From: an uncultured Holophagaceae bacterium
GTDB lineage: Bacteria > Acidobacteriota > Holophagae > Holophagales > Holophagaceae
DNA: 64,000 nt
Direction of reading: 5' to 3'
Assembly (NCBI GenBank): GCA_903857495.1
Contig: CAIOFF010000017.1
Location: 1-64,000 of the forward strand
The notes under the pieces are model-generated. The model ran no database searches and had not been told where the DNA came from. It saw only the letters and a program-made list of their open reading frames with translations. How positions within the stretch are numbered: position 1 is the first letter of the stretch; each line of letters begins with the position of its first letter. This document shows, piece by piece, positions 3,098 to 44,352 of this stretch. A program made the position numbers and the translations under genes.

Positions 3098-3115
3098 GTT
3101 GAAGAAAAAACAACC

Positions 3116-3218
3116 ACTCTCGCGGAGAAAAAGACGAGGGAAGCGGAGGGGCGGGGAGAGTTTTGGGTTAGCCGCTTTTCTCGGCGACCTCAGCCATCTC
3201 TGCGCTCTCTGCGAGAGT
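3116..3218. repeat. Intergenic imperfect palindrome, CTCTGCG type
   Basis: Arms at 3116-3128 and 3206-3218 match in 12 of 13 positions. The right arm region contains a 9-nt near-tandem word (CTCTGCGCT, CTCTGCGAG). It lies between the converging ends of pnuC and the radical SAM gene, where a bidirectional terminator would be expected, and poly-A and poly-T runs flank it. It resembles the other 9-nt-period palindromes in this window. Confidence 0.6.
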
Positions 3219-3265
3219 TTTTTGCTCTAGACCCTGGCGCTTTCCGATCCCGACAACCGGAACCG

Positions 3266-13394: not shown

Positions 13395-13733
13395 TCAGGG
13401 CCGCCAGCGGTGGGCTTCCAGATCCAGGTTGCCCAGGTCGTCCACCGCGATACCCTCGTCCCGCAGCCGCCCGATCTGCTCGAAGGCGCCCCACCAGCGG
13501 CCCCGGCTGGGCACGTAGCCCCGGGTGTTCACCACCCGGTGCCAGGGCAGGGGCGTGCCCTCCGGCAGGCCCGCCAGCACCATCCCCACCTGCCGGGGCC
13601 GCTGCGGATAGCCCGCCAGGGCCGCCACCTGCCCGTAGCTGACCAGCTTCCCCCGAGGGATCTGCCCCACCACCGCCAGCACCAGACTGCGAAAGTCCGG
13701 CGGCGGAGCCTCAGGTTCAACGCGCTTGGACAT
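13395..13733 (-). CDS. Alkyltransferase-like protein (MGMT family, Trp for Cys)
   Basis: A 112-residue protein matching the C-terminal DNA-binding domain of O6-methylguanine methyltransferases. The usual PCHRV active-site motif reads P63-W-H-R-V67, so the acceptor Cys is replaced by Trp, as in the ATL proteins, which bind O6-alkylguanine without repairing it and pass it to nucleotide excision repair. The ATG at 13733 is used; a longer frame continues upstream through the 13764-13875 repeat but encodes repeat-derived sequence. Confidence 0.88.
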   Translation of the reverse strand: MSKRVEPEAPPPDFRSLVLAVVGQIPRGKLVSYGQVAALAGYPQRPRQVGMVLAGLPEGTPLPWHRVVNTRGYVPSRGRWWGAFEQIGRLRDEGIAVDDLGNLDLEAHRWRP

Positions 13734-13763
13734 GCAACCTAACTCCACAGATCTTTGGCAGTT

Positions 13764-13875
13764 TTTGTGTTCTTTGTGTTCTTTGTGGTTAAACCGCTTT
13801 TTGCTTTGCTTGCGGAGCCAAGAGGACCTCAAAAAAAATGAAAAAATTAACCACAAAGAACACAAAGGGCACAAA
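13764..13875. repeat. Intergenic palindrome, CACAAAGAA type (9-nt words)
   Basis: Arms at 13764-13792 and 13847-13875. The inner 22 bases of each arm pair perfectly and the outer part nearly so. Each arm is three near-tandem 9-nt words (CACAAAGAA, CACAAAGGG, CACAAAGGT). The loop holds A-rich and T-rich runs. It lies between the alkyltransferase-like gene and DUF2203, both on the minus strand. Reading frames across it give repetitive peptides (NHKEHKEHK) that should not be taken as protein. Confidence 0.85.
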
Positions 13876-13955
13876 GGTGAAAACACTGGACCCTGGCCCT
13901 CAAACGGGATTGCTTCGGTGCCTATGTGGTTGAGCCCTTGGTGGGGTTGGCGAGC

Positions 13956-25128: not shown

Positions 25129-25214
25129 CCACCGATGAACACCGATTAAAAGCTGATCAAACAAGGACACCAAGGTTCTGTTTTTATCATGTCTTTATCG
25201 GTGTTCATCGGTGG
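25129..25214. repeat. CACCGATGAA-type palindrome, copy 2 (complete)
   Basis: The 18-base arms at 25129-25146 and 25197-25214 are perfect inverted copies. Each arm is two 10-nt near-tandem words (CACCGATGAA, CACCGATTAA). The loop of about 50 bases is AT-rich. It lies after the livF stop. A 29-base stretch (25129-25157) recurs at 161-189 in the other orientation with one difference. Confidence 0.88.
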
Positions 25215-25232: not shown

Positions 25233-25303
25233 TTATCCCCTTCATCCCCTGTATCCCTGTGAAAACTGCTTTGGAACAGGGATGAAGGGGATGAAGGGGA
25301 TAA
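25233..25303. repeat. Intergenic palindrome, GGGATGAAG type (9-nt words)
   Basis: The 28-base arms at 25233-25260 and 25276-25303 pair with only two mismatches around a 15-base loop. Each arm is three near-tandem 9-nt words (GGGATGAAG, GGGATGAAG, GGGATAACA). It lies next to the CACCGATGAA palindrome in the same gap, between the converging ends of livF and the hydrolase gene, so it may also act as a terminator. Confidence 0.88.
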
Positions 25304-32323: not shown

Positions 32324-32329
32324 TAGACT

Positions 32330-32381
32330 CTCCACGAAGGGCACGAAGATGGACCTGTATTTCTTCGTGCCCTTCGTGGAG
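32330..32381. terminator. Perfect 20-bp palindrome with 9-nt words, likely bidirectional terminator
   Basis: Arms CTCCACGAAGGGCACGAAGA (32330-32349) and its exact reverse complement (32362-32381) enclose a 12-base loop. Each arm is two near-tandem 9-nt words (CCACGAAGG, GCACGAAGA). It sits exactly between the converging stops of the IMPase gene and the first OPT gene. It belongs to the same 9-nt-period palindrome family as 13764-13875 and 25233-25303. Confidence 0.85.
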
Positions 32382-32394
32382 ATCCTTTCAATTC

Positions 32395-43777: not shown

Positions 43778-43990
43778 TCGGAGGTCCGAATCCTCTCGCC
43801 TGCAAGGGGTTGGCCCGCTCTCTGTATCCGGCGCCGTCCCACCAGGGCAGTGACTCGAACTGCGTCCAGCTGCGCTGTCCGCCGGCCTTGTTCGGCGCCA
43901 CATCGAGTGGCGCCTCGGCAAGTCTCCGCCTGACGCAGGCTCCCCCGGAGCCTGCTCCCGCGCGCCGCAGCGCGCGGAGTCGGAGCCTCC
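43778..43990. repeat. tRNA-associated structured repeat, unit 1 (213 bp)
   Basis: It starts with a copy of the tRNA-Pro T-arm (one T-loop change) and continues with a core of about 118 bp shared with unit 2. Within the core are a CCT-GCAA-GGG stem with a GNRA-type tetraloop and a CCC-ACCA-GGG stem. A hairpin GGCGCCAC-N5-GTGGCGCC lies at 43894-43914. A 66-bp segment (43924-43989) follows; its ends occur in unit 2 in reverse orientation. That segment holds hairpins CAGGCTCC-N3-GGAGCCTG and CCGCGCGC-N4-GCGCGCGG. Confidence 0.8.
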
Positions 43991-44208
43991 TCGGAGGTTC
44001 GAATCCTCTCGCCCGCAAGGGGTTGGCCCGCTCTCTGTATCCAGCGCCGTCCCACCAGGGCAGTGACTCGAACCGCACCCGGCTGCGCCGTGTGCCGGCC
44101 TGCTTCGGCGTGCCAGAGGCTCCGACTCCGCGATTGAGCGGAGCGAAGAGCGGGAGGACAGCGCCGGGCGCTGTCCGTCAGGCGGAGGGCACGCCTCGGG
44201 CAGTCCAC
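43991..44208. repeat. tRNA-associated structured repeat, unit 2 (218 bp)
   Basis: It begins with a T-arm copy identical to tRNA-Pro over 24 bases, and shares the roughly 118-bp core of unit 1. Its matching hairpin is GGCGTGCC (44107-44114) with GGCACGCC (44188-44195); compared with unit 1 three neighbouring base pairs have changed on both sides, keeping the stem. Here the movable segment (44116-44187) sits inside the hairpin loop and is inverted relative to unit 1. It ends with the stem GGACAGCGCC/GGCGCTGTCC. Confidence 0.8.

Positions 44209-44352
<144 letters not shown>

Follow-up and report, generated by a model that had tools for sequence, protein, structure and literature searches.

The intergenic palindromes of the window, by which we mean the whole 64,000-nucleotide stretch of DNA analysed here, are probably the gene-less copies belonging to a selfish repeat system of two parts, one that resembles the REPIN/RAYT systems but is built on an unrelated nuclease. 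The first part would be a resident gene for a GxxExxY nuclease (PF13366/TIGR04256) lying within or beside inverted arrays of two or three near-tandem words of 8, 9 or 10 nt, and the second a large set of gene-less palindromes that are made of the same words and scattered over intergenic gaps. The nuclease may recognise its own words, either as duplex arrays or as extruded hairpins, and by nicking or cutting at them would copy or move the gene-less palindromes in trans; slippage and arm-to-arm copying would keep the words of the two arms alike. On the sequence comparisons, the GxxExxY protein is the putative agent of repeat mobilisation.

Word-built palindromes in the window and its genome

With a tRNA-linked cluster at about 44 kb set aside, the top inverted repeats of the window are three palindromes, none assigned to a strand, in each of which a 9-nt period is dominant. 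That at 13764-13875 is built of the word CACAAAGAA/GGG and has 29-bp arms with 2 mismatches around a 54-nt loop, its CC/TTAA ends being turned to the loop (the outward arrangement). The palindrome at 25233-25303 combines GGGATGAAG / CCCCTTCAT in 28-bp arms (2 mismatches; 15-nt loop), and its word and inward orientation are identical to those of the arms of two gene-bearing loci, L063 and L078. The third, at 32329-32382, lies between convergent genes and has perfect 21-bp arms of CCACGAAGG/GCACGAAGA around a 12-nt loop. Scanning the window de novo for inverted repeats yielded an additional strong palindrome at 25129-25214 (likewise unstranded), overlooked in the initial annotation, with the 10-nt word CACCGATGAA/TTA and perfect 18-bp arms (CCACCGATGAACACCGAT). 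Measured against shuffles, the single-strand folds have z values of -5.9 (13764-13875), -7.9 (25129-25214), -9.6 (25233-25303) and -10.4 (32329-32382). The initial annotation had listed a fourth 9-nt-word inverted repeat beside the three strong ones, at 3116-3218 (no strand). This one is weak: its arms, of the CGCAGAGAG type, span 13 bp with 1 mismatch, and the fold of 3112-3223 has a z of -1.65, many shuffles folding equally well. Because the CGCAGAGAG word is present in its right arm, it may be a decayed copy.

At gathering score, an Rfam scan of the window gave one tRNA as its only match, the palindromes corresponding to no known structured RNA. Inverted and repeated copies of the 3' part of a tRNA (TCGGAGGTTCGAATCCTCTCGCCC) surround a minus-strand tRNA (44278-44351) within 43973-44351, a cluster that looks like an attachment site or tRNA-derived repeats. 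The CACAAAG palindromes come in two arrangements, with the CC/TTAA ends either outside (inward) or toward the loop (outward), and differ in loop length, as seen on comparing L038:1373-1465 with 13764-13875.

We scanned a sample of the source genome (443,706 bases, or 12%, of which 90% is coding) for inverted repeats with arms of at least 16 nt and periodicity in both arms. This recovered 27 repeats, whereas three Markov shuffles contained 0, 1 and 0, and 25 of the 27 are intergenic, compared with 18 of 40 inverted repeats without periodic arms. The initial annotation had proposed one design in different words, placed between genes, for which dozens of copies in several word families would count as support; it was to fall if such arms proved equally common inside genes or in shuffled sequence. 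Both tests were run, and given these counts they did not refute it: the 27 copies in 444 kb comprise several words. Its single 9-nt period was too narrow. While 15 of the repeats have that period, 6 nt is found once, 7 nt three times, and 8 and 10 nt four times each; periods of 8-10 nt belong to the GxxExxY lineages and 7 nt to a second protein family discussed below. Nor are the words unrelated, as had been supposed, many of them having a C-R-C-N-R-A-G core in common with a spacer of 1-3 nt. Over the whole genome the pattern CACAAAGnnCACAAAG, with at most 1 mismatch, has 159 matches and the reversed-pattern control 2.

A GxxExxY nuclease gene between the arms

From the palindromes the initial annotation had surmised a shared generating process or a protein that reads a 9-bp periodic site, and had named a REP-type transposase as an example of a linked gene. 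A linked gene does exist, but it codes for a predicted GxxExxY/PDDEXK_3 nuclease, which might be the reader of the words. The source genome has eight GxxExxY (PF13366) genes, all eight of which are flanked by word arrays, six of them with one arm on each side, and the family is present in 40 of 60 genomes of relatives. The source genome and relatives together supply 104 GxxExxY genes whose 500-nt flanks are complete; inverted word arrays bracket 75 of these, and a palindrome lies next to another 9. The same bracketing is found for 5 of 469 other ORFs of these loci (Fisher p 5e-63 for GxxExxY genes against control ORFs), 4 of 880 random intervals and 2 of 351 shuffled flanks. The bracketed gene-bearing unit is mostly 410-530 bp long. 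Of 79 long-range bracketing word repeats, 27 have an inner ORF that does not match GxxExxY; these mostly enclose wrong-strand ORFs over GxxExxY genes, or else PF05635 genes.

The association extends to 80 named loci of other organisms, where 75 GxxExxY genes have full flanks and 48 of them are bracketed. The search profile for these loci was built from the 8-nt clade, and in the resulting sample, which is biased toward that clade, the period is mostly 8 or 9 and the words mostly have the C-R-C-N-R-A-G core. The loci come from Planctomycetota, Acidobacteriota, Chloroflexota, Verrucomicrobiota, Pseudomonadota, Bacteroidota, Cyanobacteriota, Methanosarcinales and others. A search of viral contigs with one GxxExxY protein as query found no relative.

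The protein is about 125 residues long, and its intact copies from the source genome and the best relatives score 118-150 bits, the curated cut-offs being 22/35 (PF13366/TIGR04256). Across 213 proteins the E of GxxExxY, a D, an E-x-K motif and a Q are 98-100% conserved, and the Y of QxxxY 96%; the median dN/dS over 63 same-site pairs is 0.088. The near-invariant residues and this purifying selection show that the nuclease is maintained and is not decaying cargo. A sequence search for a solved structure of the GxxExxY protein returned none. Its AlphaFold (AF2) model (pLDDT 95) adopts a PD-(D/E)XK fold of the lambda-exonuclease/Cas4/AddB/Hjc-like type, which Foldseek matches to lambda exonuclease/Cas4 with probability 1.00, though with an E of only about 1e-3. 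The closest folds are Cas4 SSO0001 (VIA Z 10.0), lambda exonuclease and archaeal Hjc. By modelled fold and catalytic residues the protein is thus a predicted member of the PD-(D/E)XK nuclease superfamily. PADLOC assigned it to no defence system, giving only Cas4b at an E of 0.04.

Words and periods follow the protein lineage

Clustering of the proteins also sorts the words: CAC(C/G)AAG+1 nt, CAGGATTAA, CCCCTTCAT, CACCGATGAA, CCACGAAGGA and CGCAGAGAA are each confined to one protein group. Every word of the window likewise has a matching protein group, namely CACAAAG in L038/L142/L144, CCACGAAGG in L036, GGGATGAAG in L063/L078, CACCGATGAA in L031-L033 and CGCAGAG in L139/L140. Protein identity and arm similarity are correlated in a Mantel test with shared-flank pairs excluded (r 0.38; 0 of 2,000 permutations) and again when every insertion site contributes a single gene (30 sites; r 0.44; 0 of 10,000 permutations). 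On a maximum-likelihood tree of 131 proteins, the period changes 23 times, as against 58 for shuffled labels.

One site carries a CACCAAG-armed gene in six congeners and a related CGCCAAG-armed gene in six others. Were the resident gene the driver of the gene-less palindromes, their genome-wide counts would be expected to follow its word letter, a prediction that held. The CACCAAG/CGCCAAG pair counts are 55/2, 63/4, 84/2, 102/1, 63/32 and 36/1 in the genomes with the CAC-armed gene, and 3/31, 0/27, 2/13, 45/34, 7/94 and 17/23 in those with the CGC-armed gene. The CAC fractions of the two groups do not overlap (6 versus 6; exact p 0.001, with genome kinship left in; the groups also differ in protein lineage and are only partly independent). 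CACAAAG repeats are present in all 6 genomes with the cognate gene lineage, at higher numbers (p 0.003), and also in 14 of 31 genomes, as draft assemblies, in which no cognate gene was detected. Three draft assemblies rich in these repeats yielded no cognate intact gene (G022, 49; G004, 48; G030, 38), and hence the presence of the gene is not strictly required now. The total number of GxxExxY genes shows no correlation with the CACAAAG count (Spearman 0.22, p 0.19). In the GxxExxY alignment, the column of residue A10 of L034 holds T in 19 sequences, every one of which has ..GAG words, and mostly A in those with ..AAG words. The column is a possible specificity residue, although only a lead, given the few independent changes and the many columns tried.

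At orthologous sites the elements are present in some species and absent in others. The gap at 13729-13955 is merely 11-80 nt long in about 12 congeners, where the 13764-13875 palindrome is absent; in four congeners it holds either a CACAAAG palindrome arranged the opposite way (G009) or other repeat insertions (G016, G008 and G014). At 32330, the source genome (G000) and G029 share CCACGAAGG in the gap; G002, G003 and G018 have different words there, and in G001 the gap measures 29 nt. As for gene-bearing units, the 481-bp L036 element precisely separates two genes which directly adjoin each other in G022 and G003 (92% identical), in such a way that its first bases provide the stop codon for the upstream one. 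Going by sequence, these two genes are probably cdsA and dxr. G016, G002 and G017 show no trace of the L034 unit. A target-site duplication of 2 bp (CT) is seen at the L036 site and none is detectable at the L034 site. Gene-bearing units are mostly site-stable across several species (81 genes at 30 sites), while the gene-less palindromes scatter.

The initial annotation had spoken against a single repeat family by descent; within a word family, however, descent is apparent. Homology is seen between the loops of two CACAAAG palindromes, and the arms of the L034 element (CACCAAG) recur around a 13-nt loop in the gene-less palindrome at C15:30601. In the source genome (C12:3737-3916), a CCACGAAGA palindrome is nested within the loop of a CACAAAG palindrome. 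Words are gained and lost singly, the left arm of the palindrome at 25129 being one 10-nt word longer in G022 than in the source genome, and several groups of same-site genes whose proteins have diverged show concerted change of the two arms.

Alternative movers and known repeat systems

The same array anatomy is found around genes for a protein without the nuclease fold. In relatives of the source organism, 12 of 14 genes for PF05635, the 23S rRNA IVP with a four-helix bundle, sit between inverted arrays, built of 7-nt words in 11 cases and 6-nt words in one. The bracketed genes are those of L168, L170, L171, L173-L177, L180-L183 and L185, with words such as AGCTATC, AGTCTTC and GTGATGA, the 6-nt words being in L181. 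We found no PF05635 gene in the source genome, which nevertheless has orphan palindromes of the 7-nt word AGCTGTC at L148:13534-13656, L159:3892-4153 and L160:10312-10435.

That a protein lacking the nuclease fold has this architecture may be a sign that the two families share a mover located elsewhere. The GxxExxY gene might then be a passenger or guard in a word-armed element that is moved by another activity, such as host replication or repair, a reverse transcriptase or an unlinked nuclease, with word and protein travelling together. Palindrome families in genomes where no cognate gene was found are in line with such an account, and the match between word and protein could reflect joint inheritance. 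We nonetheless regard it as rather unlikely: the gene-less copies agree genome-wide with the word letter of the resident gene, the catalytic residues are almost invariant (dN/dS 0.09), and the coupling persists when phyla are compared and when each site is counted once.

The palindromes could instead be host sites with a regulatory or structural function, for instance bidirectional terminators, hairpins of mRNA 3' ends or nucleoid sites, which the GxxExxY protein as a host factor would read or trim. They do form strong hairpins, and their placement is uneven: divergent gaps are under-represented, at 1 of 23 as opposed to 50 of 179 gaps (p 0.011), and convergent ones over-represented, at 9 of 23 as opposed to 30 of 179 (p 0.021). 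Depletion near promoters would, however, be equally expected of a parasite under selection. Host sites need conserved placement at the same genes, and this is contradicted by the orthologous gaps examined, in which congeners have different words, an ordinary terminator or nothing. With one word family also nested in another and copy numbers ranging from 0 to >100 inside one genus, we consider such a host function improbable.

Still more doubtful is that these are ordinary REPs or REPINs moved by a RAYT (Y1/HUH) transposase, the GxxExxY link being secondary. In size, copy number and intergenic placement they are like published REPs (PMC2817692, PMC3116915), and they share with REPs and REPINs the many dispersed intergenic copies with inverted pairs. 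Their arms are word arrays, though, and the gene inside belongs to the predicted PD-(D/E)XK type. The listed arms begin with (A/T)NCC+word, GATCACC or GATCTCC, and none has the GTAG/CGTC tag which is reported to mark most REPs (PMC3733652). Local slippage and chance forming each palindrome in place can be dismissed as the sole cause: the number of words per arm does vary, as at 25129, but the near-empty shuffles, the words common to dozens of loci, the gene association and the precise empty sites refute it.

We return to a selfish system centred on the GxxExxY nuclease and compare it with other repeats. The 23S rRNA intervening sequence of Coxiella burnetii is 428 nt long, with a PF05635-type (S23p) ORF between inverted terminal repeats of about 28 bp and three tandem heptamers, GACAGAT, on the 5' side of the ORF, the number of which differs among strains (PMC4990558). 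A length of about 430-500 nt, a single small ORF between inverted repeats and short tandem repeats are thus common to such sequences and our units; the former lie in 23S rRNA genes with PF05635, whereas the GxxExxY units are intergenic and have 8-10-nt words. The window palindromes, as copies between protein genes in a genome where no PF05635 gene was found, are not themselves 23S intervening sequences. In this genus PF05635 copies with 7-nt words occur outside rRNA annotation too. It is a tentative possibility that GxxExxY nuclease and 8-10-nt word array form a cognate recognition pair which spreads hairpin palindromes in trans as a widespread selfish DNA of bacteria and archaea, and that, together with PF05635 and the intervening sequences (7-nt words), it represents a broader word-armed kind in which the protein family sets the period. 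The long-unexplained intervening sequences of 23S rRNA would then have a family to which they could belong, their tandem heptamers and ORF fitting the word-armed anatomy.

Our literature search, outside which most subscription journals lie, found no paper containing the words or studying GxxExxY function, and as far as we could find, a selfish repeat system linked to GxxExxY is undescribed so far. MITEs and the enterobacterial RU and ERIC repeats are similar in being short, non-autonomous, palindromic and intergenic, with putative parent elements; the terminal repeats of MITEs, however, match an element with a DDE transposase, whereas here there are word arrays and a predicted PD-(D/E)XK gene, with no clear target-site duplication. 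The recombination-promoting nucleases of the Rpn/PDDEXK_2 type are PD-(D/E)XK enzymes with many copies in some genomes. They are a different family from GxxExxY, and we know of no word-array arms in them.

The closest parallel is with REPIN/RAYT systems. Both have a vertically held single gene and many dispersed intergenic palindromes of cognate sequence, both have lineage-specific repeat types with palindromes near the gene, and the gene-bearing units are mostly site-stable, as RAYT genes are. They differ in that the protein here is a predicted PD-(D/E)XK nuclease with a lambda-exonuclease/Cas4/Hjc-like fold in place of an HUH enzyme, the arms consist of two or three near-tandem 8-10-nt words without the GTAG/CGTC tag, and the gene lies inside the palindrome. 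GxxExxY proteins, which many environmental bacteria and some archaea possess, often in several copies, are thereby given a testable role, and a class of intergenic palindromes would be explained. As the words are lineage-specific, a protein-DNA recognition code can be tested directly. In the proposed role the nuclease would be paired with DNA arms built of its own words and with dispersed gene-less copies, an analogue of RAYT/REPIN on an unrelated enzyme.
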